Assembly: GCF_001999285.1 (NCBI RefSeq)
Contig: NZ_MLHN01000001.1
Span: 1 to 64,000, forward strand
DNA length: 64,000 nucleotides
Origin: Rodentibacter genomosp. 1
GTDB lineage: Bacteria > Pseudomonadota > Gammaproteobacteria > Enterobacterales > Pasteurellaceae
Direction of reading: 5' to 3'
The notes beneath the pieces are model-generated. The model did no database searches. It saw only the letters and a program-made list of their open reading frames with translations, and was not told where the DNA came from. Numbering within the stretch: position 1 is the first letter of the stretch; the number at the start of each line of letters is the position of its first letter. Positions 6,912-55,928 of this stretch are shown piece by piece. The position numbers were made by a program, and so were the translations under genes.

Positions 6912-9359
6912 TTAATGTTGTAATGTTCTTAAAATATCAGCGAAGATGCCAGCAGCCGTGACTGCATTACCTGCACCATAACCACGTAATAATAATGGAA
7001 TAGGCTGATAATAGCGAGTGTAGAAAGCGAGGGCGTTTTCTCCGTCTTTTACTTTGTAAAGTGGGTTATTTTGATCAACGGCAACAATCGAAACTTTGCA
7101 TTTCCCCTCAATAATTTGTCCGACATAACGTAATACTTTTCCTTCGGCCTTGGCTGCTTCTACCCGTGCTTTGAAGTCATCATCAAGCTGTGGCAACATC
7201 GCCATAAACTCATCGGCTGATTTACCTTCAGAGAAACCTTGTGGTAATACCCCCTCCACTTCGACATTAGAAAGCTCTAATTCTAGGCCTGCTTCACGTG
7301 CGAGAATTAAGAGTTTACGTGCCACATCTTGACCTGATAGGTCATCTCGGGGATCCGGTTCGGTAAATCCTTTTTCACGAGCAAGTGCGGTCACTTCTGA
7401 GAGAGAAAAGCCTTCTTCCAATTTACCAAAAATAAAGGATAGCGAGCCGGATAAAATGCCTTCAAAACGTTCTAGCTCATCACCGGCCGCAAGGAGATTT
7501 TGCAAGTTTTCAATCACGGGTAAGCCTGCACCGACATTGGTCTCATATAAAAACTTATGCTGACTTGCCTGCGCATTTTGGCGTAACTCATGATAATAGG
7601 ACAGATCGCGTGTGTTGGCTTTTTTATTTGGTGTGACGACATGAAACCCCTCTTTTAATGCTCGAGCATAAAGACCAGCGACAGATTCAGCCGAGGTGCA
7701 ATCAACGAATACCGGATTAACCACATGATGTAATTTAATGAACGAAAGTAAGACATCAAAATCAGAAGGCTGGGTTGCATTTTCAAGATCGGTTTTCCAA
7801 TTTTCTAAATCTAAGCCATTTTCATTGAGGAGCATTTTGTTGGAGTTTGCAATGGCACAGACGCGAATTTCCACCTCTTTCTTCGCCAAATACTCCTTTT
7901 GGCGCTTTACCTGCTCAATTAATTCACCACCGACACCACCGACGCCCACAAGAAACATATCTACGACCTTTTTATTGTTAAAAAGGGCTTGATGTGTGGC
8001 TTTCACCGCTTCAATTGCTTTATTTTGTGGCACAACAGCAGAGATAGAACGTTCGCTAGAACCCTGTGCGATTGCCACAATGCTGATATTCGCCTGTGCT
8101 AATGCGGAGAAGAAACGGGCGGCAATACCTTTCGCTTGTTTCATTCCATCGCCTACTACTGAGATAATGGATAAATCTTTAATCACCTCAATCGGCTCTA
8201 ATTGATTTGCATTAAGTTCGTTCGAAAATTCAGTTTCAAGCACAACTTTAGCGGTTTCTGAAGATTTCACCGGAACACAGAAACTGATACTGTATTCGGA
8301 TGAGGACTGAGTAATTAAAATCACTGAAATACCAGCGCTCGACATTGCTGAAAATACACGGGCTGCCATTCCTACCATACCTTGCATACCAGGGCCTGAA
8401 ATATTGAACATTGCCACATTATCTAAATTGGTAATGCCTTTTACTTGTAAACCTTCGGATTTTACATTGCCATCAATAATCGATCCCGGTGCGGAGGGAT
8501 TACCGGTATTTTTAATCACACAAGGAATATTTTGTGGTAATAATGGACCGATAGTACGAGGATGAATCACTTTTGCCCCGAAATAGGAAAGTTCCATTGC
8601 TTCACGATAAGAAAGGGTAGGTAATAATCTCGCATCCGGTACTAAACGGGGATCACAAGTGTAAACCCCGTCCACATCTGTCCAAATTTCACATACACGG
8701 GCATTTAAACAAGCGGCCAGACAAGCCGCAGAATAATCCGAACCGTTGCGACCTAATAGTACGAGTTCCCCTTTTTCATTGCCGGCAGTGAAACCTGCCA
8801 TTAATACCACTTTATCTTTTGCAATATTTTCAGCACTGACTCGTTTGGTGGATTCGGCAATTTCAACGGAGGATTCTAAATATCCTCCCGTTGCTAATAA
8901 TTGTTTTACCGGATCAACAATATGGACGTGATAACCACGGGCTTCAAACCAAGCTTTCATCATTGCGATGGAAAGCTTTTCACCACGACAATCAATCGTT
9001 GCTTTCACCGAATCTTCAACTTTACCTGCTTGACGTATTTCTTCCAATAGCCCTTTAATTTGAGAAAACTCCGCATCAATGAGTGCTTTTGTACCATTTA
9101 AGTCAAACTGATTATTTTCTGCATGTAACCCATTAATAATGTTGTAGAAAATATCAAGAGCTTCGTTGAAATGAGTATCGGTGGGTTGGTTTAGTGCAGC
9201 TTTTTCTGAGAGGGCAACAAGGTGATTGGTAATTTTTGCCGGTGCGGACAAGACGCCTGCGGCTTGCTCTTCTAAGTGAGCCTGTTCAATCAGTTTTGCT
9301 GCCTGAGAAAAACGTTCGGGATTTGCAAGCGAAGTGCCACCAAATTTGAGTACGCGCAT
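6912..9359 (-). CDS. thrA: Bifunctional aspartokinase I / homoserine dehydrogenase I
   Basis: Catalyses the first and third steps from aspartate to threonine. About 815 aa. The N-terminal aspartokinase shows KFGGTS near residue 5 and [10 protein letters not shown] near 205. Paired ACT-type regulatory segments lie near 310-455 (the [13 protein letters not shown] and [10 protein letters not shown] repeats), which in this family bind threonine. The homoserine dehydrogenase begins at the Rossmann motif [14 protein letters not shown] near 463-476. I choose the ATG at 9359 over 9365 because GGAG is 7 bases before it and too close to the other. It is the first structural gene after the leader peptide and attenuator. 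Confidence 0.97.
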
Positions 9360-41131: not shown

Positions 41132-41320
41132 TAGCGCCTCTCCTGAATGGTTGTATGCTACTCTCTTTAATCTATGAATTCAACCGATAATTTTTGTAAC
41201 AAATTTGTAAAAATTTGCGGTTCATCACAAATTTAGGCGAAAAAAGGGCGTATAATCAGGCCGTTTTTTAATTTGGTTCTATGCGAACCAAGTTCCGTAT
41301 CACCACAATGGAGTATTTAT

Positions 41321-43585
41321 ATGAGCGAACAACTACGTCAAGCCGCATTGGATTTCCACGAGTTCCCTATCCCGGGAAAAATTGAAGTTACCCCTACTAA
41401 ATCATTGGCAACCCAACGCGATTTAGCCCTCGCTTATTCTCCGGGTGTGGCAGAGCCTTGTTTAGAAATTGAAAAAGATCCTTTAGCATCTTATAAATAC
41501 ACTGCACGCGGGAACTTGGTAGCTGTGATTTCAAACGGTACCGCAGTTCTAGGATTAGGCAATATCGGTGCGCTTGCCGGTAAGCCTGTGATGGAAGGAA
41601 AAGGTGTCTTATTTAAAAAGTTTGCCGGTATTAATGTATTTGATATTGAAGTAAATGAACATGATCCGGACAAGTTAGTGGATATTATCGCCTCGCTTGA
41701 GCCTACTTTTGGCGGTGTAAACCTTGAAGATATTAAAGCACCGGAATGTTTCTATATTGAGCAAAAATTACGTGAGCGTATGAATATTCCTGTGTTTCAT
41801 GACGATCAGCACGGTACGGCAATTATTAGTGCGGCAGCAATTATTAATTCACTTCGCATTATTGGTAAAAAAATTGAAGAGGTACGTCTCGTTGCCTCCG
41901 GAGCAGGGGCAGCTTCCATTGCTTGTTTGAATTTATTGCTTTCCCTTGGGATGAAACGTGAAAATATCACAATTTGCGATTCAAAAGGCGTGGTCTATAA
42001 AAATCGTGGTGATCGTATGGATAAAACGAAAGAAGATTATGCAATTGAAGACAACGGTTGGCGCACATTAGCTGATGCTATCCCGAATGCGGATATTTTC
42101 CTCGGTTGTTCTGCCGCAGGGGCATTGACACAAGATATGGTTAAAACTATGGCGGCGCACCCAATAATTCTTGCCTTGGCTAATCCGAATCCTGAAATTA
42201 CCCCGCCGGAAGCCAAAGCCGTTCGTCCTGATGCGATAGTTTGTACCGGTCGTTCAGACTATCCGAATCAAGTTAACAATGTCCTTTGCTTCCCATTTAT
42301 TTTCCGTGGGGCATTAGATGTGGGGGCAACCACGATTAATGAAGAAATGAAGCGTGCAGCGGTTTATGCCATTGCCGATTTGGCACTTGAAGAACAAAAT
42401 GACGTAGTGACTTCAGCCTATGGCGGAGAAGGCGCAACCTTTGGTGCAGATTATGTGATTCCACGTCCGTTTGACCCTCGTTTAATTGTACGTATCGCTC
42501 CTGCTGTGGCAAAAGCCGCAATGGATTCAGGTGTCGCTACACGCCCCATCTTGGATTGGAATGGATACATTGAAAAATTGACTCAATTCGTTTACAAAAC
42601 CAGCTTGTTTATGCGACCGATTTTTAATCAAGCCAAATCTGCAAAACAGCGTATTATCCTTGCGGAGGGGGAAGAGGCAAAAGCCTTACATGCGGTACAA
42701 GAAGTGGTTTCCATGGAACTTGCCTTGCCAATTTTAATTGGCCGTAAAGACGTGATTGAAGAAAAAATCAAAAAACTGGGGTTACGTTTGGAAGTGGGGG
42801 TAAACGTAGAAGTAGTAGATAATGAAAATAATCCACGTTATGAAGAATGTTGGAAATATTATTATGAACTGACAAAACGCAAGGGCGTCACACCAGCAAT
42901 CGCTAAACGTGTTGTGCGTTCAAACACAACTGTACTTGCCTCCGTCTTAGTCAATTTAGGCTATGCAGACGGATTAGTATGCGGTTTGTTTGGTTCTTAT
43001 GGCAAACATTTAGATTCTATTAGAGATATTATTGGCTTAAAAGATGGGGTAAAAACCGCCGCAGCTTTAAATAGCCTTGTATTGCCAAGCGGTAATGTTT
43101 TCTTAACGGATACGCATGTCAATGATGATCCAAGTGCAGAAGAATTAGCAGAAATAACCTTAATGGCGGCTGATGAAGTTCATCGTTTTGGTATTGAGCC
43201 GGCGGTTGCCTTGCTTTCTCACTCCAATTTTGGTTCATCAAACACGCTAGGCGCACCAAAAGTACGTGATGCTTTGAAAATTGTACAAGAACATAACCCA
43301 CAGTTAATGATTGATGGCGAAATGAGAGGTGACATTGCACTTTGTGCAGCACAACGTACAGAGGTTATGCCGGATAGCCCGTTAAAAGGTTCGGCGAACT
43401 TACTTGTGTTTCCTAATTTAAGTGCGGCACGTATTAGTTACAGCTTATTGCGTGGTACTACCACGGCCGTCACAGTAGGACCAATCTTAATGGGAATGAA
43501 TAAATCAGCCCATATATTAAACCCAAGCGCTTCTGTTCGCCGGATCATTAATATGATTGCTTATGCAGCAGTAAAAGCACAATAA
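41321..43585 (+). CDS. maeB: NADP-dependent malic enzyme (MaeB type)
   Basis: Oxidatively decarboxylates malate to pyruvate. 754 aa in two parts: the malic enzyme domain (residues 1-430: [55 protein letters not shown] for NADP) and a C-terminal phosphotransacetylase-like domain (about 435-754: [31 protein letters not shown]) that is regulatory in E. coli MaeB. I choose the ATG at 41321 ([14 protein letters not shown]) over 41273; GGAG is 11 bases before. Its 3' end borders the capsule locus. Confidence 0.96.
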
Positions 43586-43600
43586 GACTAATTTGTTTGA

Positions 43601-43652
43601 GTAAAAAGTGCGGTCAATTAAATTTCTGTTTTATTGACCGTACTTTGTTTTT
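43601..43652 (+). repeat. Direct repeat copy 1 flanking the capsule locus; also the maeB terminator
   Basis: This 52-bp segment recurs at 54901-54952 in the same orientation with two differences (T/C at 43641, G/A at 43647). The arms AAAAAGTGCGGTCAA (43603-43617) and TTGACCGTACTTT (43634-43646) form a terminator hairpin with a 16-base loop, between convergent maeB and kpsS. The right-arm uptake signal is damaged by the T/C change. The repeat ends exactly at the base before the kpsS stop codon. Confidence 0.9.
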
Positions 43653-44873
43653 TTACTGATTATATGGATATTTCAACATCACTTTATTATAAAAACTACC
43701 ATTAACCATAGTTTTGTGTAGATGATATTTCCGATAAGATTTAAATACTATTGGATTTGGTGGAGTTGGATTTATCCAAAAATCAGTTAAGGTACCTTGA
43801 TGTGTTAATCCCTCAAAATCATAATTTGCTCTCCCAAGAGTCATAACGGACATATTGTGATGTAGGGCTGAAATCCCACTTGTACTATTGATTGTTACCA
43901 TTCCTTTTCCATGCTGTAGTAATACTGGCAGTGGTACATCGTGAATATAGTAAATTCTTCCTCTTAGGTGTGCATAACGCTGTTCAAAGGTTTCAATTAT
44001 GCCGCAATAATCAATAAGCCCTCTATCCATTGGATGATGTTTCACGATTAAATTCAAATTATGGGGCGCGTTTTCGGCAAAGGATTGTAATACTGTTTGA
44101 AGAAATTTTGCTACGTTACCATAATCACAATGTACTTTTACTTGACTATCATCGTACACTTGTAATGGCACGATAAAAAATTCCCCTAGCTTTCCTGCTC
44201 TGACTTTTTTGGCAAAATTGTGATCACGTAAATAGTAACAAGTGCGTTTAACCGCAGATTTCCCCCATAATTTAATATAATACCTAAGATTTAAAATACG
44301 ATGATGTTGATATTTTGGAAAATTAGATCGGCCTAGGTATGCCTGAACATAATAAATAATTGCCTGTTTTGCCATGGGGAGAAAGCCTTTTGCTAATTTT
44401 AGTGGCTTTGTTGGTTCAGGTAAGTTTTTTGCTTGTTTTAGGAAAAACTCTGCCTCTTTTGGCAGTGTCGAAAAAGCATTTACACCTGTCTTTTCAAGGG
44501 TGATATAGTCAGGACGGAAATAACCCTCTTCAAATACCCAGAAATCTAAATCAAGGGAATAGGCTACTTTTTTGCCAATTTTGTGGTATTTTCGGTTATC
44601 GCCAAAGCAAATAATTGAATCAATCTTATTTTTCTCACAGAAGAGACGTAATGATGGATAAAATTTACTTACAGAGTCGGTATAAGCAATCGTATTTTCA
44701 ATAGTGGGTGGATAAAAATGTGAATCTCCACCGTTGAAATTGATTTTATAGACCGTTTTTCCATGTGATTGTAGCCAGAGGGATAAATCGGTAAAAAAAG
44801 TACCAACGGGACCTTGTAGTAGTAATACCTTTTGATATTTTTGAACTAATTTATCTAAATTATGTGAAATCAT
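43653..44873 (-). CDS. kpsS: Capsule polysaccharide beta-Kdo transferase (KpsS/HcsB/LipB family)
   Basis: 406 aa. In ABC-dependent capsules KpsS adds the first Kdo to the lipid acceptor on which the polymer is anchored. Family segments: FNGGDSHFYPPTIENTIAY, ICFGDNRKYHKIGKKVAYSLDLDFWVFEEGYFRPDYITLEKTGVNAFS (about residues 92-140), LIVKHHPMDRGLIDY and VTINSTSGISALHHNMSVMTLG (near 335-357). It is the last gene of the leftward capsule transcript. It stops one base from the direct repeat. Confidence 0.93.
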   Translation of the reverse strand: MISHNLDKLVQKYQKVLLLQGPVGTFFTDLSLWLQSHGKTVYKINFNGGDSHFYPPTIENTIAYTDSVSKFYPSLRLFCEKNKIDSIICFGDNRKYHKIGKKVAYSLDLDFWVFEEGYFRPDYITLEKTGVNAFSTLPKEAEFFLKQAKNLPEPTKPLKLAKGFLPMAKQAIIYYVQAYLGRSNFPKYQHHRILNLRYYIKLWGKSAVKRTCYYLRDHNFAKKVRAGKLGEFFIVPLQVYDDSQVKVHCDYGNVAKFLQTVLQSFAENAPHNLNLIVKHHPMDRGLIDYCGIIETFEQRYAHLRGRIYYIHDVPLPVLLQHGKGMVTINSTSGISALHHNMSVMTLGRANYDFEGLTHQGTLTDFWINPTPPNPIVFKSYRKYHLHKTMVNGSFYNKVMLKYPYNQ

Positions 44874-44946
44874 AGTAAACGTTAGAGATTATAACTTATT
44901 GTTTTATTTAAAAATGATTATAGATACGAGTTTTATTTGAAATTAA

Positions 44947-47013
44947 TTATATTTCATTTTTTAGTATAAACTCATTTTTCAGGGTTATAAGCAAATGCCT
45001 CAATTTCCCCCATTGTTTGGAAAACCAGTTACGATGAATGCCGCTGTGTTCTAGGTTTTCTCTTTGCTGTTTGAGTAAATAAATAGCTGATAATGCATTT
45101 GTCATTTCACCTGTATATGGGTTGATATATTGTGGGTAATAGACCAACGAACCTGCAATGAGTTCCAATAAAGTTAATTTTCTGGTACGGCGTGTAATTG
45201 GTAGCTTATCTATGGTTAGTCCCCAGCCAGCATAAAATGGTAGACCATAGCAATAGACTTTTTTACCGCGTAATAATGCCTCAAATCCTGCGAGTGATGT
45301 CATGGTATGTAACTCATCCACTGCTTGAATACAGTCTAGCACATTCTCATTATCGGCAAATTGATCTGCAAATTTGACTGCTTGTTCAAGAGGAATTTCC
45401 CCCACTCGATTACCGCTGATGACATCAGGGTGGGGTTTATAGACGATATATGCTTGTGGGTTGGCCTTTCTTACAGCCTGCAATAAGCCAAGATTCGTAA
45501 AGATTTTCGGTGAACCGGTTCGAATAGAGGCATCATCTTCCACTTGCCCAACGACTAAAATTTTAGTTTTTGAGGTTTGTGGCAAGGAAAACTTGTGCTC
45601 GCCCACATTATATTTGTTAATATGTTGAACAATCAGTTCTTTCTGCAATTCAGAAGCTTGTTGTAAATCTGCTTCACTAAATACTTGTGTTTGCAAAATC
45701 TGCTCTAGGCGAGAAGGCTTTTGTGCGTTGAAATAAATACCTAAATCATCACATACTAAGGAAAGCGGTGCGACCAAATTAGAACCTAATCCCACAGAAC
45801 GAATAAAGCCATCTTCTATCCTTAGAACAGAAATACCGTTGCGGTTTGCGTATTCTAATACGGTTTCTTTTCCCACACCCCAAAGCAGTAAACGATCAGA
45901 TTTTTTCCATTTTTTATGGTTGAGTTTCGTTACCTTAGAAACAAAATGAAGCTTACAACTCGGTAAATGGAAAAACGGGCGAATTACCGCACGTTTCCAA
46001 AGAGACATTCCCACACAATAGAGATTGCCTCGCAGACGATTATTTAATGACTTCATTTTTGTGAGATAATCAATTACATCAAAAATCGTCCCTGTTTGCC
46101 CCGTGTTTGGGTTTATATAACGGCTATATTGAAAGTATGCGGCATAAAATAGTTGTAAAACTGACCGCACTTTTCGTCGTTCACTTTGAGCAAGGGCTTG
46201 AGCTTGTGGATGGCGATCTTCCGTTATGCCCCAACCGGCAAACCAAGGAACACCAAAAGTGATGACTTTCTTCTTGGCTAACAATGCCTCAAAACCCATT
46301 TGTGACGTTACGCAATAAACTTTTTCCACCACAGCAATTAGCGAGAGCGGATTTACATCTTCTGTCAAAATTTGCACGTTTTCGGGCAAATCTTCCTGCA
46401 AAGTGAGATAGCCTTTTTTCTTACCGGAAAGTACATCTGGATGCGTTTTCACTACAATGATGGCGTGCGGATTTTCCGCAATTGCAGCTTGCAACATCGA
46501 ATGAAAATGCGACTCATCAGCCTGACCATATTTCACCGCCATATCACCAAAGGTTTGATCTACCACCAATACGGCAGGTTTTGTAAAACTACCTGAAAAA
46601 TCGACTGCGTGATTATACTTTGACAAACGAACTTTCAAGATCAAATCTAGTGCCTGCTGTGCTTCCGGTGGCGCTTCATCAGGCTGTGCCAATACCAATT
46701 GCTCAAGCTCTGAAGGCGTACTGGTATCGTAATAAATCCCGAGTGAATCAACCACTATTGACATCGGTGGATATCCATTTACACCCAAGCCAATAGAACG
46801 AAGAAAGCCATCTTCTAATGCGACAAAAGGAAGATTATGTTGTTTGGCATAAGTTCTTGCTTTTTTCGTGGAGGGACGTAGTCCCCACCCTAGCACTTTA
46901 TCTCCTTTTAGGTTTAACCAAGGGCGATAAAAAGTAAGAGTTTCATTCGGTAGGAATGAGACCAAGTGTGGAATTTTTTTTATTCCGAAGGAGAAAATAA
47001 GAGCGGTTAGCAT
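44947..47013 (-). CDS. kpsC: Capsule polysaccharide beta-Kdo transferase (KpsC/HcsA/LipA family)
   Basis: 688 aa with two related glycosyltransferase modules, as in KpsC, which extends the poly-Kdo linker. Each module shows the same marks: LEDGFLRSIGLG (near residue 86) and IEDGFIRSVGLGSN (near 400), KTHPDVLSGKK and KPHPDVISGNR, then VTSQMGFEALLAKKKVITFGVPWFAGWGIT and MTSLAGFEALLRGKKVYCYGLPFYAGWGLT. It starts 15 bp after the polymerase gene, and 73 bp separate it from kpsS. Confidence 0.95.
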   Translation of the reverse strand: MLTALIFSFGIKKIPHLVSFLPNETLTFYRPWLNLKGDKVLGWGLRPSTKKARTYAKQHNLPFVALEDGFLRSIGLGVNGYPPMSIVVDSLGIYYDTSTPSELEQLVLAQPDEAPPEAQQALDLILKVRLSKYNHAVDFSGSFTKPAVLVVDQTFGDMAVKYGQADESHFHSMLQAAIAENPHAIIVVKTHPDVLSGKKKGYLTLQEDLPENVQILTEDVNPLSLIAVVEKVYCVTSQMGFEALLAKKKVITFGVPWFAGWGITEDRHPQAQALAQSERRKVRSVLQLFYAAYFQYSRYINPNTGQTGTIFDVIDYLTKMKSLNNRLRGNLYCVGMSLWKRAVIRPFFHLPSCKLHFVSKVTKLNHKKWKKSDRLLLWGVGKETVLEYANRNGISVLRIEDGFIRSVGLGSNLVAPLSLVCDDLGIYFNAQKPSRLEQILQTQVFSEADLQQASELQKELIVQHINKYNVGEHKFSLPQTSKTKILVVGQVEDDASIRTGSPKIFTNLGLLQAVRKANPQAYIVYKPHPDVISGNRVGEIPLEQAVKFADQFADNENVLDCIQAVDELHTMTSLAGFEALLRGKKVYCYGLPFYAGWGLTIDKLPITRRTRKLTLLELIAGSLVYYPQYINPYTGEMTNALSAIYLLKQQRENLEHSGIHRNWFSKQWGKLRHLLITLKNEFILKNEI

Positions 47014-47028
47014 GACTAATATAGAATT

Positions 47029-49602
47029 TTATTCCTCTAATTTTTTTATTGCTTCATATGTTCTAGCACAGCATTCCCCATCTATGAAAGGGAATGTTCT
47101 TTTTATTCGTTTATTATAGGGATAGAATGGTTTACCTTTATTTTTCAAAATTCTTTTAAGTGAAAGGACAAGATCTTTTTCTTGGTAAACAACTGGACCA
47201 AAGCCATGTTTTTCATAACTGAAATATCCTCTTTGAAATACATGAGCATTTGTGAAGAAATCTTCTTGGTCAAATTGATAATACAAGACAGTTTTACCCA
47301 AAACGCCCATTTCGAATGCAACAGATGAATAATCTGTAATCATAAATGTGGAATTTTGAAATAGTGTTTGGATGCTACCATCTTTTGCTCGCCATAATTT
47401 TATATAATCTGGAAGGTTAAGTTTGGTTAAATAAGGTTCTATATTCGCATGAGGTGCAAATATAACTTGATAACCATACTTTTTTGACAAACTTCTTAAT
47501 TCATTACTGCAAAGGAAACTACGCCAATGTTTGGCATATTCTGTTTCCATAAATGAATTATTTAATTCTCGTTTATTTCCATTTGTTGTATTTCCTAAGA
47601 TACTTTTTCTCCAAGTTGGCATGATAAGAATAGATTTTGATTTTGTATTATTTCCTTTAACTAGAGCATCATGCCTTGGAAAACCAACCAGAGAAACTTC
47701 TTTTTGGGTTAATTTATATTTTGTATTGTTTGCTATAAAAGCTTCATGTTCATATGGAGTTGCTGAAATAATTAAACTAAGATTTCTCTTTGAGTTTATC
47801 CATGATGATAGATCATTATGTGTTATACCATGTTGTAGAAATATAAATTTTTTAGTAAATTCAAAATTATCTTTAAATGGATTAATAATATATTCATCAA
47901 GATGACTACTAATTAAATGGCTAGATAATTTTAATTGTGATCTGTATTGCTCACTTTTAAAATTTATTAAGTTAAAATTATCTTTTTCTAGTCTTTTCCA
48001 ATCATGAGAATCTTTATTTAAAGCAAAATAAATCCTTTTTTCAGGGTGATTTTTTTGCATGTAACGATAAAAGTGTTCACCATTATCATCAGCTTGGGTA
48101 TCCCTATCCATAATAATCCAACTGTGATCTGTTTGAGTATAGATCTGAGGCTCTAAATCTCTAAAAATTACTCTAAGTGGTAAACCATTTAGATGTTGTT
48201 TCCCTGTCAAGGATATTCTAGCATCTTTACCATCAATTTTAAGTCTAAACATATCTTTGGGTTTTCTGTCTTTATATGAGATCCAAAACCTATGCTCATA
48301 TAATATGGTTTCACCAGCCAAAGTATATATCCTTGATTTTTCATATTGCGGTTTAATTAGTGAACCATTCCAAGAAATCTCTTCATTTGGAGTATCTTCA
48401 TTTGAGAAAGAATACAAGTTGAATTGTTCTTTTTCTCTATCTATACTGTCTATATAGACTATATGAAAAGGTATTTTCATCTTCTTAAAATGACAGATAT
48501 ATAAAACCCGTTGAAAAAACCATGTCCCCACTAGCTCAAAATCCATAATGGTTTTTACATCAATAAACTTAAAGATCTTATATAGAAGAGATATAAATTC
48601 TGTTTTTTCTTCTTTAGATAGGATATTTAATGCGGATTCATTATTCACAAGATATTTGAAATACCAAGATAGGTGATATAAAACAGTTCTTTGAATGTAA
48701 ACAGGAACAAATCCTAGATTTGATTGGCAATTCTCAAATAGTTTTAAGCATCCTTCATGTAATACTTTAGTATAAAGAGTATTTTTCTGCCAGGCACCAT
48801 CTAATGTGGATGTTCCGTCAGAACGTTTTCTATAAAAATAATTAGCATCTTGAATGAATCCAATAGTATTTTCTTGACTTGCATGAGTTAGATAATCACC
48901 AACAAATTTTGCATCTTCAAAATTTGGTTTAATATCGCTAAATGTAATGTTGAATCGTTTGATTAAATTAGTTCTAAAGAAAGCATTATTTACACTCATT
49001 TGAAAGTGACGATCTAATTCTTTAATTTTACATTTGTGTTCTCCTTCATCAAATCTAAATTTTAACGGATGAGAGTTTTTATAGATTTTTTTATCTTCAA
49101 AATAAAAAATGAATGGACAACTTACTAACGAAACATTTTCATTATCTGAAATAAACTTATCTACTTTTTGAAAGTATTTTCTAGAAATAAAGTCGTCTGG
49201 ATCAATAAATGTTATCCATTTTGTTTTTGCATACGGGATTCCATGGTTTCTAGCAGATGCTTGCCCACCATTCTCTTTATAGTAATAATGTATATTTTTA
49301 GGATATCTCTTTTGCCATTTTTCTATAATAGACTTTGAGTTATCTGTAGAACCATCATCAACAAGAACAATTTGTATAAACTCAACAAAATTTACTGATT
49401 GTTTTACGATACTTTTGAAATAGTCGTCTAAATATTTTTCTACATTATATACAGCAGAGATAATGGTGAACTTATTTCTTGGGGTGTAGTTTCTTCTATA
49501 AATGAGATTATTAAGTTTACTCTTTTTTTTATCTATCATATCCTTAAAAAATAATTTAGGATCTCTTTTTAATTTTCTTAATTTTCGTTTTATATTATTC
49601 AT
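47029..49602 (-). CDS. Bifunctional capsule polymerase: GT2 glycosyltransferase fused to TagF-like phosphotransferase
   Basis: 857 aa. The N-terminal GT2 domain starts near residue 44 (FTIISAVYNVEKYLDDYFKS), with DDGSTDNSKS near 83-92 and FIDPDDFIS near 132-140. A central region (about 290-500) is unassigned. The C-terminal half is a CDP-glycerol glycerophosphotransferase (TagF) domain: FLQHGITHNDL near 589-599 with the catalytic His, IMPTWRKSILG near 655, and TDYSSVAFEMGVLGKTVLYYQFDQ near 757-780. Such fusions build teichoic acid-like capsules in Actinobacillus and relatives, alternating hexose and polyol phosphate. No CDP-glycerol synthase gene is in the locus. Markedly AT-rich. It overlaps the upstream Stealth gene by four bases (ATGA). 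Confidence 0.9.
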   Translation of the reverse strand: MNNIKRKLRKLKRDPKLFFKDMIDKKKSKLNNLIYRRNYTPRNKFTIISAVYNVEKYLDDYFKSIVKQSVNFVEFIQIVLVDDGSTDNSKSIIEKWQKRYPKNIHYYYKENGGQASARNHGIPYAKTKWITFIDPDDFISRKYFQKVDKFISDNENVSLVSCPFIFYFEDKKIYKNSHPLKFRFDEGEHKCKIKELDRHFQMSVNNAFFRTNLIKRFNITFSDIKPNFEDAKFVGDYLTHASQENTIGFIQDANYFYRKRSDGTSTLDGAWQKNTLYTKVLHEGCLKLFENCQSNLGFVPVYIQRTVLYHLSWYFKYLVNNESALNILSKEEKTEFISLLYKIFKFIDVKTIMDFELVGTWFFQRVLYICHFKKMKIPFHIVYIDSIDREKEQFNLYSFSNEDTPNEEISWNGSLIKPQYEKSRIYTLAGETILYEHRFWISYKDRKPKDMFRLKIDGKDARISLTGKQHLNGLPLRVIFRDLEPQIYTQTDHSWIIMDRDTQADDNGEHFYRYMQKNHPEKRIYFALNKDSHDWKRLEKDNFNLINFKSEQYRSQLKLSSHLISSHLDEYIINPFKDNFEFTKKFIFLQHGITHNDLSSWINSKRNLSLIISATPYEHEAFIANNTKYKLTQKEVSLVGFPRHDALVKGNNTKSKSILIMPTWRKSILGNTTNGNKRELNNSFMETEYAKHWRSFLCSNELRSLSKKYGYQVIFAPHANIEPYLTKLNLPDYIKLWRAKDGSIQTLFQNSTFMITDYSSVAFEMGVLGKTVLYYQFDQEDFFTNAHVFQRGYFSYEKHGFGPVVYQEKDLVLSLKRILKNKGKPFYPYNKRIKRTFPFIDGECCARTYEAIKKLEE

Positions 49603-50711
49603 TGTTTATCTCCATTATAATATTTTTCTAATGTTGTAATAAGTAATTCTTTATAATTAGGAATATTTACGTTACTATGGAAATCGTTTGCACAAAAAGA
49701 ATGTGGTTGATTTACTGTATTTTTTTTACGTAATAATTTTTTATATTGAGAAGCAGCATTGACAGATCGTATATTGAAATAATAACAAACCTCAGGAGTG
49801 ATTACGCTTTCCCCTTCAAAATACATTGCGTAAGGGATAAAAAATGTTGCGAGGTTAAGATCGTTTTTACCTCTAAATCGGTTTGATAAGAAACCTGATA
49901 TTTCATTAGGAAATGTTTGCCATACTTTTTCAAAAAAACTTTTCTTTAATGGTATATAAGAGTGAATCAATGGAGTTTGTGCATTTAATTCTTGCCCATA
50001 CAGCTTTCTCAATAGCTTTCTAGAATTCATAGACGCAAGCAGTGTTGGAGTTTCCGTTCCTTTTTCATACATTTTGTCTAAATTTTTAACTGATAAGAAA
50101 AGAGAAGCCAATCCATTGGGTTTGAAAAAATGTGATCTTTGTAATGGTTTGGCGACAAAAACATCGTCATTAAAATAGATAAAATTTTCACTTAAATGAG
50201 GTATTTTGTGCAAATGTGCTTCAATTACATGAGAGTTAAAGGTTGGCAGATATTGTTTATCAATCAATATTTTATGATCAATAATTTTAATCTGTTGGTT
50301 TTCTTCATCCAACCATTCCGGTGTTTGGTTATCAGTAACGATGAAGATATATCGAACCCAAGGCAGAAATTTCTGCACACTTTTTACGGCAAAAAAGAGC
50401 TCATTATGCTCTTCAAATCGTGCATCATCTTTTGCATATAGGGCGGTATCTTGAGTGAGCTGTGCATAGTGCTGTTTTTTCTCTTTCCATATTTGCTCTT
50501 TGTTGTTTACCCAAGTGAATACCACGTCAATAGGATCTTTTGCATTGAGTAATAAACTTTCTAATATTTCCAAGCTATCTTGATGAGAAATAATCGCTCT
50601 TTCATCATTTTCTCTAATTCCCTGTTCATTGTTGATTTCTGGGTATCTCTTATTCAACGCATCACGAAAGAAAATGTGAGGTTTAAAAATTAGTTTCTTT
50701 AGTTTACTCAT
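49599..50711 (-). CDS. Stealth-domain sugar-1-phosphate transferase
   Basis: 370 aa. All Stealth conserved regions can be seen: CR1 IDVVFTWVNNKEQIW (about residues 61-75), CR2 ARFEEHNELFFAVKSVQKFLPWVRYIFIVTDNQTPEWL (about 96-133), CR3 FNSHVIEAHLHKIPHLSENFIYFNDDVFVAKPL (about 155-188) and a CR4-like end near 310. Stealth proteins move hexose-1-phosphate from a nucleotide sugar and form phosphodiester-linked capsules. First gene of the leftward capsule transcript. Together with the TagF fusion it suggests a capsule with two kinds of phosphodiester, or a Stealth enzyme acting as primer. Confidence 0.92.
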   Translation of the reverse strand: MSKLKKLIFKPHIFFRDALNKRYPEINNEQGIRENDERAIISHQDSLEILESLLLNAKDPIDVVFTWVNNKEQIWKEKKQHYAQLTQDTALYAKDDARFEEHNELFFAVKSVQKFLPWVRYIFIVTDNQTPEWLDEENQQIKIIDHKILIDKQYLPTFNSHVIEAHLHKIPHLSENFIYFNDDVFVAKPLQRSHFFKPNGLASLFLSVKNLDKMYEKGTETPTLLASMNSRKLLRKLYGQELNAQTPLIHSYIPLKKSFFEKVWQTFPNEISGFLSNRFRGKNDLNLATFFIPYAMYFEGESVITPEVCYYFNIRSVNAASQYKKLLRKKNTVNQPHSFCANDFHSNVNIPNYKELLITTLEKYYNGDKQ

Positions 50712-50834
50712 GCGACTAGAAAGTATTTAGTATTCTTTTACAATAAGTAGAATATTTTACACAACTTAAAATTAGAGTCCTGTATTTTGTACTGCAATGA
50801 AAAATTCGCTGAAATAATGGTAAAACATACTGAA

Positions 50835-50863
50835 ATTATATTTATAAAATGTAATTTATTCAA
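50835..50863 (-). promoter_or_regulatory. Promoter of the leftward capsule synthesis operon
   Basis: On the minus strand TTGAAT (50858-50863), 17-bp spacer, and a perfect TATAAT (50835-50840). Predicted start near 50828, giving a leader of about 115 bases before the Stealth gene ATG. Confidence 0.7.
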
Positions 50864-50914
50864 GTAAATTCTCAATAATTTACTTTATTTACAATAATCC
50901 CCTTGATAGGCTAC

Positions 50915-50944
50915 ATTGCCATTGCCATTGCCATTGCCATTGCC
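50915..50944. repeat. Hexanucleotide tandem repeat (ATTGCC)5 between the two capsule operons
   Basis: Five perfect head-to-tail copies of ATTGCC, in the 410-bp gap between divergent capsule synthesis and export genes. It lies outside any ORF. It is about 87-116 bp upstream of the predicted start of the synthesis operon and about 150-180 bp upstream of that of bexD. Perfect short repeats in Haemophilus often change copy number; a regulatory effect here is an inference. Confidence 0.95.
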
Positions 50945-51028
50945 AAATTATTCATAAAAAATCAAGAATCTTTATAAAATTCAAGCAAATAGTTGAGTCA
51001 AGAAAACAGGGGATTCAATGATATTTTT

Positions 51029-51046
51029 TGTCCAAACTTATGGACA
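51029..51046. promoter_or_regulatory. Palindrome upstream of the bexD promoter
   Basis: TGTCC and GGACA form an inverted repeat around AAACTTAT, about 50-67 bp upstream of the predicted bexD start. It could bind a regulator; I do not recognise the site. Confidence 0.35.
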
Positions 51047-51080
51047 TCTTTAATATTATTTTTCTGATTTACTATTTAAG

Positions 51081-51089
51081 TGTTATACT
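51081..51089 (+). promoter_or_regulatory. Extended -10 promoter of the capsule export operon
   Basis: TGTTATACT fits the extended -10 pattern TG-N-TATAAT with one change, 36 bp upstream of bexD. No good -35 is visible at 17 bp, as is usual for extended -10 promoters. Confidence 0.6.
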
Positions 51090-51124
51090 TTTATCCATTC
51101 GTCTTAACTAATTGAGAACTGTTG

Positions 51125-52315
51125 ATGAAAAATTACCAATTAAAACAGGTTGCGATGAGTTTAATTTTGACTCTGGGTTTTTCGGCTTGTTCTACGTTGC
51201 CAACCTCTGGCCCTAGTCATTCTGCCGTATTGAAAGCAAATCAAAATCGTGAAACTTCGAAGTTCGCAGGTCAAGTAAATGTGGTTGAGCTGAACGATAC
51301 CTTGGTGCAGGGAATGTATCTTGCCCAACAAAACCAGAAATTTTCAGGCTTTTCCGGTTTGGGTGTTGACTCGGGCTATGCTGGTGCAGTGAATGTGGGT
51401 GATGTGCTAGAGATTTCTATTTGGGAAGCTCCGCCTGCAGTGTTGTTTGGTACAACATTTAGTAGTGAGGGGCAGGGCAGTGGGCATGTTACGCAATTGC
51501 CTTCACAGATGGTGAACTCAAATGGGACGGTAACCGTACCTTTTGTGGGGAATATTCGTGTAGCGGGTAAAACACCAGAAATTATTCAATCTCAGATTGT
51601 TGCTGCGCTAAGCCGTAAGGCGAATCAGCCACAAGCTGTGGTGAAAGTGGCAAATAATTTTTCGAGCGATGTGACAGTGATTCGTCAAGGTAGCACCGTA
51701 CGTATGCCACTCACGGCAAATAGTGAGCGTGTGTTAGATGCGGTTGCAGCGGTCGGAGGTACTACAGAAAATATTGAAGATGTAACGGTTCAGTTAACTC
51801 GTGGTAATCAGGTGAAAACTTTAGCATTTGAAACCTTAATTGCTGATCCCGCTCAGAATATTATGTTGCGTTCAGGCGACGTTGTCTCACTTTTAAATAC
51901 ACCCTATAAATTCACGGGGTTGGGGGCATTGGGTAATAATCAACAAGTGCGTTTTTCAAGTAGCGGAATTACTCTTGCTGAAGCAATTGGTAAAATGGGG
52001 GGGTTAATTGATACCCGTTCTGATCCCCGTGGTGTGTTTGTCTTCCGTTATACGCCATTTACTCAGTTAGATTATCAGGTTCAGCAAGAATGGGCTGCGA
52101 AAGGCTACAGCACTGGAATGGATATTCCAACTGTGTACCGGGTGAATTTGTTAGAACCGCAAGCGATGTTTTTGTTACAGCGCTTTCCAGTCCAAGATAA
52201 GGATATTGTTTATGTTTCAAATGCCCCACTTGCAGAGTTTCAGAAATTCTTGAGAATGATTTTTTCGATTACCTTGCCTGCAACCAGTACGGCTAATTCG
52301 ATCAATAATTTATAA
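51125..52315 (+). CDS. bexD: Capsule export outer membrane lipoprotein (BexD/CpxD/Wza family)
   Basis: 396 aa OPX protein that forms the outer membrane exit of the capsule exporter. Lipobox GFSAC ends the signal peptide (Cys24), so it is a lipoprotein. The polysaccharide export domain (GDVLEISIWEAPPAVLFG ... VTVPFVGNIRVAGKTPEIIQSQIV) and SLBB-type repeats (VTVIRQGSTVRMPLTANSERVLDAVAAVGG) follow. First of four genes; bexC starts 11 bp later. Confidence 0.94.
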   Translation: MKNYQLKQVAMSLILTLGFSACSTLPTSGPSHSAVLKANQNRETSKFAGQVNVVELNDTLVQGMYLAQQNQKFSGFSGLGVDSGYAGAVNVGDVLEISIWEAPPAVLFGTTFSSEGQGSGHVTQLPSQMVNSNGTVTVPFVGNIRVAGKTPEIIQSQIVAALSRKANQPQAVVKVANNFSSDVTVIRQGSTVRMPLTANSERVLDAVAAVGGTTENIEDVTVQLTRGNQVKTLAFETLIADPAQNIMLRSGDVVSLLNTPYKFTGLGALGNNQQVRFSSSGITLAEAIGKMGGLIDTRSDPRGVFVFRYTPFTQLDYQVQQEWAAKGYSTGMDIPTVYRVNLLEPQAMFLLQRFPVQDKDIVYVSNAPLAEFQKFLRMIFSITLPATSTANSINNL

Positions 52316-52326
52316 GAGTAAAAGAT

Positions 52327-53457
52327 ATGACGACCGATACTTCGGTAAAACCGAAAAAGAAAAAATCCTTGTGGAAAAAGTTAAATCCGTTATTTTGGAT
52401 TACAGTCTTAATTCCGACCGCACTTTCAGCGGTCTATTTTGGTTTATTTGCCTCAGATATTTATGTTTCAGAGTCAAGCTTTGTCGTGCGTTCTCCACAC
52501 AATCAATCTTCGCTTTCGGGGGTGGGGGCATTGTTGCAAGGATCGGGTTTTTCCCGTTCTCAAGATGATACCTATTCTGTGCAGGAGTATATGCGTTCCC
52601 GAACGGCATTAGAACGCCTTGAACAAGCCTTACCAATTCGTGAATTTTATTCGGAAAAGGGTGATATTTTGAGCCGTTTCAATGGTTTTGGATTAAATGG
52701 TACGCAAGAAGCGTTCTATCGTTACTTTAAAGAGAGATTAGGCGTTGATGTGGATTCTATTTCTGGCATTGCAACCTTACGTGTGCGAGCTTTTGATGCT
52801 GATGAAGGCTTCCGGATAAACGAGCGTTTGTTGAAAGAGGGAGAGTCATTAATTAACCGTTTAAATGAACGTGCTAGAAAAGATACCGTTGAGTTTGCCG
52901 AACAAGCGGTGATGGAGGCTGAAAAAAATGTCAATGAAACAGCCAAAGCATTAAGCCAGTATCGGATAAAGAATAAAATTTTCGATTTGCCGGCTCAATC
53001 AGGCGTACAGTTGACTTTGATTTCAAGCCTTAAGAGCGAGTTGATTCGTGTGGAAACTCAGCTTGCACAGCTAATTTCTATCACACCGGATAATCCACAA
53101 GTACCGGCCTTGCAAATGCGTCAAAAAAGTTTGAAAAAAGAGATTGATGAACAATCCCGCCAGCTTTCAGGTAACGGTAATTCTGCTGCTACGCAAACGG
53201 CAGATTATCAACGTTTAGTGCTTGCTAATGAGTTAGCGCAACAACAATTGACGGCGGCAATGACTTCCCTGCAAAACACTCGCGGTGAAGCAGACCGCCA
53301 ACAGCTTTATTTAGAAGTGATTAGCCAACCGAGCAAACCGGACTGGGCATTAGAACCAAACCGCATTTACAATATTATCGCTACTTTCATTATTGGCTTT
53401 ATTTTGTATGGCGTGTTGGGGTTATTGATTGCTAGCATCAGAGAGCATAAAAACTAA
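52327..53457 (+). CDS. bexC: Capsule export inner membrane/periplasmic protein (BexC/KpsE family)
   Basis: 376 aa polysaccharide co-polymerase of the ABC-dependent type, linking the inner membrane transporter to BexD. It has one N-terminal helix (WITVLIPTALSAVYFGLF, about residues 24-41), a long periplasmic coiled-coil-rich middle (SLKSELIRVETQLAQL, MRQKSLKKEIDEQSRQL) and one C-terminal helix (IIATFIIGFILYGVLGLLIASI). Stop and bexB start overlap by one base. Confidence 0.94.
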   Translation: MTTDTSVKPKKKKSLWKKLNPLFWITVLIPTALSAVYFGLFASDIYVSESSFVVRSPHNQSSLSGVGALLQGSGFSRSQDDTYSVQEYMRSRTALERLEQALPIREFYSEKGDILSRFNGFGLNGTQEAFYRYFKERLGVDVDSISGIATLRVRAFDADEGFRINERLLKEGESLINRLNERARKDTVEFAEQAVMEAEKNVNETAKALSQYRIKNKIFDLPAQSGVQLTLISSLKSELIRVETQLAQLISITPDNPQVPALQMRQKSLKKEIDEQSRQLSGNGNSAATQTADYQRLVLANELAQQQLTAAMTSLQNTRGEADRQQLYLEVISQPSKPDWALEPNRIYNIIATFIIGFILYGVLGLLIASIREHKN

Positions 53458-54254
53458 TGGGATATGGCGAACAAACCTCCTTTAGACAGTCATTAGCCAT
53501 TCAAGGACGAGTGATCAATGCCTTGCTAATGCGTGAAATTATTACACGCTATGGGAGAAAGAATCTTGGCTTTTTATGGCTATTTGTTGAGCCTCTGTTG
53601 CTCACATTTTTTATTGTGATGATGTGGAAATTCTTGCGTGCGGATAAAGTTTCCACATTGAATATCATTGCGTTTGTGATGACTGGTTATCCTATGGCGA
53701 TGATGTGGAGAAATGCTTCAAACCGAGCTATAGGCTCAATTTCGGCAAATTTAAGCTTACTTTATCACCGTAATGTGCGAGTGTTAGATACCATTTTTAC
53801 TCGTGTATTACTGGAAGTGGCAGGAGCTTCCATTGCTCAAATCTTGTTTATGGCAATATTAGTGGCAATTGGTTGGATTCCTGTCCCACAGGATGTATTG
53901 TATATGTTGATTGCATGGTTTTTGATAGCGGTTTTTGCTCTCGGATTAGGGTTAATCATCTGCGCTATTGCTCAACAAGTGGACTTCTTTGGAAAAATTT
54001 GGGGGACGCTAAGCTTTGTATTGTTACCGCTTTCCGGTGCATTTTTCTTTGTTCATAACCTACCGACCCAGGCGCAGAATATGGCTCTTTGGTTGCCAAT
54101 GATTCACGGTACTGAGATGTTCCGACACGGCTATTTTGGCGAAACGGTGGTGACTTATGAAAGTGTGGGATTTTTGATTGTCAGCGATTTAATCTTATTG
54201 TTGATTGGTTTGGTGATGGTGAGAAACTTTAGCAAAGGAGTAGAACCACAATGA
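53457..54254 (+). CDS. bexB: Capsule ABC transporter permease (BexB/KpsM family)
   Basis: 265 aa with six predicted membrane helices, ABC-2 type. [30 protein letters not shown] near residues 27-56 is the family start, and [37 protein letters not shown] near 195-230 is conserved. It overlaps bexA by four bases (ATGA), so the pair is translationally coupled. Confidence 0.95.
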
Positions 54255-54904
54255 TTCGAATCAAGAACGTTAGCAAAAAATATCACACCAATAGTGGGTG
54301 GAAAACCGTACTAAAAGATATTAATCTTGAGCTGCAAAAAGGTGAAAAAGTCGGGATTTTAGGGCGAAATGGTGCAGGAAAATCAACTCTTATTCGTTTA
54401 ATGAGCGGTGTAGAACCTCCAACAATGGGTATAATTGAACGAGAAATGTCGATTTCTTGGCCTTTGGCTTTTAGTGGTGCATTTCAAGGCAGTCTAACTG
54501 GAATGGATAATTTACGTTTTATCTGCCGTTTGTATGATGTAGATCCTGATTATGTAAAAAGATTCACCGAAGAATTCTCAGAATTGGGCGATTATTTATA
54601 TGAACCGGTGAAAAAATACTCTTCGGGAATGAAAGCTCGCTTAGCCTTTGCATTATCTCTATCGGTTGAATTTGATTGCTATTTGATTGATGAAGTGATC
54701 GCAGTTGGAGACTCTCGTTTTGCTGAAAAATGCAAGTATGAATTGTTTGAGAAACGTAAAGATCGCTCCATTATTCTTGTTTCACACAGCCCTTCAGCAA
54801 TCAAATCCTATTGTAATAATGCGGTTGTATTGGAAAATGGGGTAATGCATCACTTTGAGGATATGGATAAGGCTTATCAGTATTATAATGAGTCACAAAA
54901 GTAA
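54251..54904 (+). CDS. bexA: Capsule ABC transporter ATPase (BexA/KpsT family)
   Basis: 217 aa. Walker [14 protein letters not shown] (about residues 38-50), ABC signature [15 protein letters not shown] (about 122-136) and Walker [15 protein letters not shown] (about 140-153), with the switch His in LVSHSP. Powers export of the finished lipid-linked polymer. Its TAA stop is inside the first bases of the second direct repeat. Confidence 0.96.
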
Positions 54905-54952
54905 AAAGTGCGGTCAATTAAATTTCTGTTTTATTGACCGCACTTTATTTTT
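54901..54952 (+). repeat. Direct repeat copy 2 flanking the capsule locus; also bexA/cmoB terminator
   Basis: Same 52 bp as 43601-43652 (50 of 52 identical, spacing exactly 11,300 bp). Arms AAAAAGTGCGGTCAA (54903-54917) and TTGACCGCACTTT (54934-54946) are two intact uptake signals in inverted orientation around the same 16-base loop as copy 1. It contains the bexA stop codon (54902-54904) and lies 10 bp before the cmoB stop. Confidence 0.9.
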
Positions 54953-54962
54953 AATTAGCCAG

Positions 54963-55928
54963 TTATTTATTCGCTAAAATTACGGCTCTTGTTGGGGCTT
55001 GGTAACCTTCAATGGTTTTACTCTGATCATTCGGATCTAAAAAATCAATCAGGCTTTCGTTTTCCAACCAATCGGTTTTACGCTGTTCTTCCAATGTGGT
55101 TGGGGCGACATCGACACAGCGAGCGTGAGTGAAACCTACTTTTTCTAACCAGTTAATTAATGTGGCAACCGAGGGAATAAAATAGACATTTTTCATTTTG
55201 GCATAGCGATCTGCTGGCAGGAGAACAGTATTGGCATCGCCATCTACCACAAGGGTTTCTAGTACGAGTTCTCCACCTTTCTTCAATTGATTCTTAAGTT
55301 GAATAAGATGATCGAGGGGGGATTTTCGGTGGTATAACACGCCCATTGAAAACACAGTATCAAAGGCAGCGAGTGGTTGCATTTGCTCTATCCCAAGAGG
55401 AATGAGGTTTACACGGCGATCATTATTGAGGAGTTTACGAACCGCTTCAAATTGGCAAAGGAAAAGTTCTGTAGGATCAATCCCCACCACCATTTTTGCT
55501 CCTTCACCCAGCATTCGCCACATATGATAACCGCTACCGCAGCCTACATCTAAAATAGTGCGATCTTTTAGGGGGGCGAGATGAGGAAGCACACGATCCC
55601 ATTTAAAATCAGAACGCCATTCGCAATCTATATAAATACCAAATAGATGATAAGGCCCTTTTCGCCATGGCATAAGCTGTTTTAAATGATGAATAATGCG
55701 CTGTTTTTCGCCTTCCGAAAGGGGAGAAGTGCGGTCAGATTTCACCGCATTTTTTAAATCAATGGTATCTGCCGTTAAGTCAGGTAAAAAGTCGATGATT
55801 TTTGACCATTTCTCGTAATCACCATGAGTTTGTTTTTCCCACTCTTTTATTTGGAGAGGGAGGGTTTCAAGCCAATCAGAGAGAGGGCTTGTGGCGATTT
55901 GTTGATAAAAAGGGCGAAAATCGATCAT
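54963..55928 (-). CDS. cmoB: tRNA U34 carboxymethyltransferase
   Basis: Uses carboxy-SAM to make cmo5U at the wobble position of several tRNAs. 321 aa. [27 protein letters not shown] start, [33 protein letters not shown] near 88-120, SAM loop [15 protein letters not shown] near 125-139 and [24 protein letters not shown] match CmoB. No cmoA gene is in the window. The gene is the right-hand neighbour of the capsule locus. Confidence 0.96.

Follow-up and report, generated by a model that had tools for sequence, protein, structure and literature searches.

The closest functional analogue of the arrangement described here is the wzy locus of Salmonella Typhimurium, likewise a surface-polysaccharide gene lying between direct repeats. 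According to the available parts of that report, wzy is flanked by identical 113-bp direct repeats, is excised precisely to leave one repeat with a circle detected by polymerase chain reaction, and is restored in co-culture, the recombinase not being identified there (PMC12074656). The locus considered here lies in a stretch of 64,000 nucleotides from Rodentibacter genomosp. 1 (RefSeq assembly GCF_001999285.1, contig NZ_MLHN01000001.1, positions 1 to 64,000), called the window below. In this window, a capsule block between the core genes maeB and cmoB carries at each end a copy of a 53-bp hairpin built from two inverted uptake signal sequences (USS). Excision was shown for wzy, whereas it is a prediction for the present locus, in which the repeats are 53-bp USS-pair terminators and the bracketed segment is a multi-gene locus of 11.3 kb.

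The minimal mobile elements of Neisseria are alternative cassettes located between conserved genes and spread by transformation without mobility genes. They are defined by the homology of the flanking core genes, whereas the present locus is defined by a duplicated terminator. The cap locus of Haemophilus influenzae is flanked by direct IS1016 repeats that permit copy-number change, these repeats being insertion sequences and not, as here, terminators. The closest structural precedent within the Pasteurellaceae is the hif pilus island of H. influenzae, an accessory surface-structure cluster between core genes that is reportedly flanked by direct repeats of the insertion-site sequence. In the portions available of PMC3928620, this island is inserted between purE and pepN, and the rnf insertion of type f strains carries identical 41-bp direct repeats proposed as the edges of the insert. 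The rnf repeats are short and come from the same family, like the present pair, but no terminator hairpin is described in those portions. Inverted pairs of USS or of DNA uptake sequences (DUS) are established as terminators (PMC2397512). They are the same kind of element, whereas the available text of that paper is concerned with termination and uptake rather than with duplication around inserts. In searches of an open-access collection, the titles and abstract openings of the papers listed yielded nothing on the duplication of a USS terminator around a capsule locus, and term searches of PMC6418240 and PMC6790013 for flanks and repeats gave no relevant text.

The direct repeat occupies positions 43600..43652 (copy 1) and 54900..54952 (copy 2), with 11,300 bp from start to start. 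Both copies are identical at 51 of 53 positions, with a longest exact run of 41 bp. A 52-bp version noticed earlier from the sequence alone is confirmed with 2 mismatches (50/52), and so is its spacing. Each copy consists of an inverted pair of the USS AAGTGCGGT, one of the four USS having a changed base (in copy 1), around a middle of 22 bases, CAATTAAATTTCTGTTTTATTG, the ends of which lengthen the stem. Copy 1 stands between maeB (plus strand) and kpsS (minus strand), and copy 2 between bexA (plus) and cmoB (minus). Compared with dinucleotide shuffles, the folding z values on the two strands are -8.0 and -6.2 for copy 2, and -6.5 and -5.7 for copy 1. Both copies display the two inverted USS, the stable stem and the T-run of a USS-pair intrinsic terminator and are predicted to act as such; a simple terminator scan restricted to loops of 3-8 bases listed neither of them. 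Copy 1 is followed immediately by the stop codon of kpsS (43653-43655), copy 2 contains that of bexA (54902-54904), and the core genes outside converge, maeB ending at 43585 and cmoB at 54963. The repeats do mark the block from stop to stop between convergent core genes, as the sequence-only reading had stated.

The presence of USS in these copies is in itself nothing unusual, since the 64-kb window holds 44 exact USS. In naturally competent cells they would aid transfer by transformation. The match nevertheless goes beyond uptake-signal likeness, as first proposed. A 42-base form of the hairpin occurs, with at most 3 mismatches, at two places in the 2.35-Mb genome of the strain, both at the ends of the capsule block, and in none of the 14 other Rodentibacter genomes (0/14). 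The sequence was thus not found at many unrelated terminators, where its presence would have spoken against the earlier proposal. The loop identity of the pair is 1.00, against a maximum of 0.86 and a mean of 0.68 in 36 pairs from nine other long-loop hairpins among the matches listed. The loop comparison and the genome count together speak strongly against a chance likeness of USS hairpins, and a dispersed repeat is ruled out by the two places in this genome and the 0/14 in the rest of the genus.

The empty site was looked for in 15 Rodentibacter genomes including that of the window, with one genome per species. A kpsS match is present in 3/15. Among the 12 genomes lacking it, nine display maeB, one USS hairpin and cmoB in this order; in one of the nine, R. 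heidelbergensis (G004), the hairpin is interrupted by a small element. In the three others (G003, G012, G013), maeB and cmoB lie apart. The expectation that acapsular relatives would show a maeB-terminator-cmoB junction thus holds for 9/12 and fails for 3/12. When the outer flanks of the window are joined around one repeat copy, the product aligns with the empty sites over the whole interval between the ends of the two core genes, in an alignment that omits G004 owing to its insert; this supports the proposed entry at a single maeB/cmoB terminator. Both expected states are consequently seen, near-identical direct repeats at the block ends and a single copy at the empty site, the latter in other species. 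Both copies of the window resemble the long-loop hairpins of relatives, but with the loop sequence turned over.

The capsule block is probably, though far from certainly, a cassette devoid of transposase and integrase that was inserted by a single crossover at the USS-hairpin terminator shared by maeB and cmoB. The insertion at the terminator is, as judged from these comparisons, the well-supported part. The 53-bp repeats would be two copies of the shared terminator, the first serving maeB and kpsS and the second bexA and cmoB. The integrating DNA may have been a circle, or a linear piece with hairpin arms at its ends that was repaired ends-in; either way, a single crossover at the hairpin would place the resident loop on both sides of the insert and thereby duplicate the resident terminator. 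An enzyme-free duplication of the whole terminator fits such a crossover. Gene conversion, through recombination between the copies, would keep them alike. The same recombination could remove the 11.3 kb between them, and the cell would then lack a capsule but retain a single functional terminator. Deletion through the 41-bp exact match appears plausible in view of the length limits quoted in the parts available of PMC12074656 (23-27 bp for RecBC and 44-90 bp for RecF).

A matched pair of another sequence is found at the same site in R. rarus (G008). Its capsule block, split over two contigs, also lies at maeB/cmoB in the orientation of the window. The hairpin loop, CAATAAAATCATTGTTTTTATTG, is identical between its two copies, and 2 of the 43 hairpin bases differ, both in one arm. 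This comparison leaves out a small element that interrupts the cmoB-side copy and is flanked by the 10-base repeat AATAAAATCA. Between the window and R. rarus, the loop identity is 0.83. R. rarus falls beside R. heidelbergensis, a genome lacking kpsS, in the tree of cmoB, and beside both R. heidelbergensis and R. trehalosifermentans in that of maeB; neither tree places it with the window. At the nucleotide level, the window and R. rarus are 83-86% identical in the bex genes, 87.2% in maeB and 85.6% in cmoB. The bex genes have thus diverged like core genes, yet the loops are identical within each genome, which calls for either separate recent insertions or homogenisation; a single insertion shared by both would imply later homogenisation. 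Whether there were two insertions or one old insertion kept matched by recombination, the hairpins would be recombination sites. In R. rarus, a second, partial kpsC-like stretch with 52-59% identity is also present upstream of kpsC (L157 1675-1901).

An independent case is provided by the genus that includes Mannheimia sp. USDA-ARS-USMARC-1261 (G109), which uses another USS dialect, ACAAGCGGT. One long hairpin follows yebE (DUF533) in 7/7 genomes of this genus, and elsewhere in these seven genomes the hairpin pattern recurs only in weaker form, once in G105 and once in G106. In G106, G107 and G110, the order is yebE, one hairpin and a phosphoglucomutase-family gene (here pgm), the latter identical at 119-120 of 128 residues to its counterpart adjoining the capsule of G105. 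In G105, yebE and pgm are separated by the capsule block, both ends of which carry the hairpin, the two copies having the same orientation and lying 13.8 kb apart. In G104 and G109, another gene than pgm comes after the yebE hairpin. The G109 capsule is located elsewhere; its kpsS end bears half a hairpin, which matches the hairpin of the bexA end and is truncated by an adjoining piece of an IS256-family transposase that scores below the family cut-off.

In R. trehalosifermentans (G014), the capsule occupies another site, bexA adjoining the terminator hairpin of tpiA. A USS hairpin follows tpiA in 12 of the 13 other genomes with a tpiA match, the exception being the genome of the window, in which a small element is found at this place. 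The tpiA-side loop of R. trehalosifermentans is close to the R. heidelbergensis loop. The bexDCB genes are 99.7-99.9% identical between R. rarus (L158 5000-8137) and R. trehalosifermentans (L160 872-4009), although they stand at different chromosomal sites, and the identity drops to 94.2% in bexA. Such near-identity at different sites indicates that capsule modules move between sites and that the export module was exchanged recently.

Across the family, 51 genomes are kpsS-positive, 48 of them outside Rodentibacter, and capsule regions were examined from 40 of these 48. The kpsS and bexA ends were both in view in 19/40, of which L201, L203 and L204 were dropped because their ends face each other across one intergenic region. 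Matched ends were found in two of the 16 remaining loci (L231, L235), both from the Mannheimia genus. A second survey searched for USS-containing direct repeats of at least 40 bp in 132 loci (2.60 Mb, some overlapping), a sample enriched in capsule regions that comprises the surroundings of cmoB and of capsule genes together with 280 kb from the genome of the window. Six were found: those of the window, of G105 and of a ParE-type cassette, together with L022 (dispersed, also inverted), L041 (181 bp) and L227 (378 bp). All three hairpin pairs bracket accessory cassettes. The inverted-repeat control gave 3 matches in 2 loci, one being the palindromic G105 pair. In Pasteurellaceae bacterium Pebbles2, direct repeats of 85 bp with 96% identity (L021 4478-4562 and 5146-5230), made of a USS hairpin and the 3' end of tldD, flank the ParE-type toxin-antitoxin pair, the antitoxin of which matched no Pfam family. 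The tldD 3' end is readable in 17 other loci and the pair occurs in 0/17, with a long USS hairpin in L020 and a short one in L039.

Several observations weigh against insertion by crossover at the terminator. Matched ends are missing from 14/16 family capsule loci with both ends readable, which rules out matched hairpins as a universal feature of capsule loci. In R. trehalosifermentans, the kpsS-end hairpin is unlike the bexA-end hairpin and there is no matched pair, and in G108 the resident hairpin is found on the bexA side only, the kpsS end being different. The two G105 copies are only 50/56 identical to each other, the yebE-side copy differs from the resident G106/G107 form at 5/56 positions, and these hairpins are palindromic, so that the inverted score equals the direct score. 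At the tldD site, 15/17 loci carry no USS in the 72 bases after the stop codon, and the comparison yielded no clean empty site. At maeB/cmoB, the terminator of R. ratti, which is the closest genome as judged from the identity of these two genes, has a short loop, so the long-loop form could have arrived with the capsule. Between the window and R. rarus, kpsS (82.1%) and kpsC (77.3%) are less alike than the bex and core genes, so that the block is a mosaic. Finally, an exact run of 41 bp is short if recombination is to be frequent, and no strain polymorphic for the block was seen in this set of one genome per species.

Among other explanations, gene conversion alone has a modest chance of being correct. 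In that case, one end of the incoming locus would have had a terminator of unrelated origin, and the hairpin would have been copied across later, the repeat reflecting homogenisation and not target duplication. This would account for pairs that are matched in the window and in R. rarus but mutually different, and for bex genes that look as old as the species split at a site and in an orientation common to both. It fits less well with G105, the pgm-side copy of which is the resident G106/G107 form at 55/56 positions while the other copy retains the resident left half, or with the toxin-antitoxin case, where tldD 3' coding sequence beyond the hairpin is duplicated. It is more doubtful that a long-loop pair travels with the capsule locus, with USS arms at both cassette ends, and that long-loop hairpins in capsule-less genomes are scars of its loss. 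USS hairpins do stand at capsule ends at the tpiA site too, and the single long-loop hairpins of G001, G006 and G004 could be such scars, R. ratti and others having short loops. However, the Mannheimia pair matches the hairpin that follows yebE in 7/7 genomes, four of them without a kpsS match, and the loops differ among the window, R. rarus and R. trehalosifermentans.

Coincidence, whereby two USS-pair terminators are alike since both must be bidirectional and USS-built, is very improbable. USS hairpins are indeed common, with 83 perfect ones in this genome, but a loop identity of 1.00 exceeds anything in the 36 other listed pairs, the hairpin occupies only two places in the genome, and matched pairs recur in R. 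rarus and Mannheimia. An integrase or transposon island that has lost its enzyme, with att sites or a target-site duplication as its repeats, is the least credible explanation of all. Direct repeats at both ends do resemble att sites, but no recombinase gene lies in the block, and the repeats vary by genome and resemble local terminators without a fixed att core. Moreover, 53 bp exceeds the usual target duplications.

The capsule block carries bexDCBA and kpsC/kpsS-like genes around type-specific genes, as in group II-type Pasteurellaceae capsule loci. Its left core neighbour, the malic enzyme gene maeB (41318..43585, plus strand), was assigned from its open reading frame (NCBIfam NF009501 below cut-off) and shares 89-98% amino acid identity with 14 genomes of the genus; its stop codon, next to the hairpin (43583-43585), comes two codons earlier than in these 14 genomes, TAA replacing CAA. 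On the minus strand, the left end of the block is formed by the kpsS/hcsB-like gene (43653..44873, Pfam PF05159), followed by the kpsC/hcsA-like gene (44947..47013, Pfam PF05159), by a capsule polymer enzyme in which a GT2 glycosyltransferase is fused to a CDP-glycerol glycerophosphotransferase domain (47029..49602, Pfam PF00535 and PF04464) and by a Stealth-family sugar-phosphate transferase (49599..50711, Pfam PF11380 and PF17102). The glycerophosphotransferase and Stealth domains (47029-50711) suggest a phosphate-linked, teichoic-acid-like capsule polymer. On the plus strand come the genes for a bexD-like polysaccharide export outer-membrane protein (51122..52315, Pfam PF02563 and SLBB), a bexC-like export inner-membrane protein (52327..53457, TIGR01010 above cut-off), a bexB-like ABC-2 permease (53457..54254, PF01061) and, at the right end, a bexA-like ABC ATPase (54251..54904, PF00005). 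The right core neighbour is cmoB (54963..55928, minus strand, TIGR00452 above cut-off). Open reading frames and Pfam/NCBIfam profiles disclosed no recombinase, integrase or transposase gene among the genes between the repeats.

A small element with inverted ends such as ATTATGTAGC...GCTACATAAT was observed inside USS hairpins at L011 11005-11248, L158 ~8803-8990, L274 4994-5157, L026 794-927 and, in the genome of the window, after tpiA (L245). The search for it returned 14 rows corresponding to 12 distinct places, three rows representing one R. heidelbergensis place. A forward USS lies on the left at 6/12 places, a reverse USS on the right at 4/12, and both at 3/12; the R. rarus (L158) and tpiA (L245) copies were found by eye and are outside these 12 places. 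The element may favour uptake-signal terminators. Separately, a record titled Pseudomonas stutzeri NCTC11607 (L017) contains a Pasteurellaceae cmoB/rng region and is probably mislabelled.

The matched but different pair of R. rarus, the Mannheimia case with its empty sites and the toxin-antitoxin case are new here, and they lead to a testable rule with clear exceptions. The broadest form of this rule, that USS-hairpin terminators are general, enzyme-free and reversible landing sites for cassettes in Pasteurellaceae, is put forward tentatively, as a possibility with well below even prospects. Incoming DNA ending in USS arms would recombine ends-in, the loop would be copied to both sides, and the cassette would have its own terminators on arrival; a toxin-antitoxin cassette and the capsule loci of two or more genera would be users of such sites. 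If this is true, naturally competent Pasteurellaceae would gain and lose capsule and other cassettes with no need of mobility genes, the cassettes bringing their terminators with them. Uptake signals would then be tied to a recombination step, beyond DNA uptake, and capsule loss would be predicted to be reversible.

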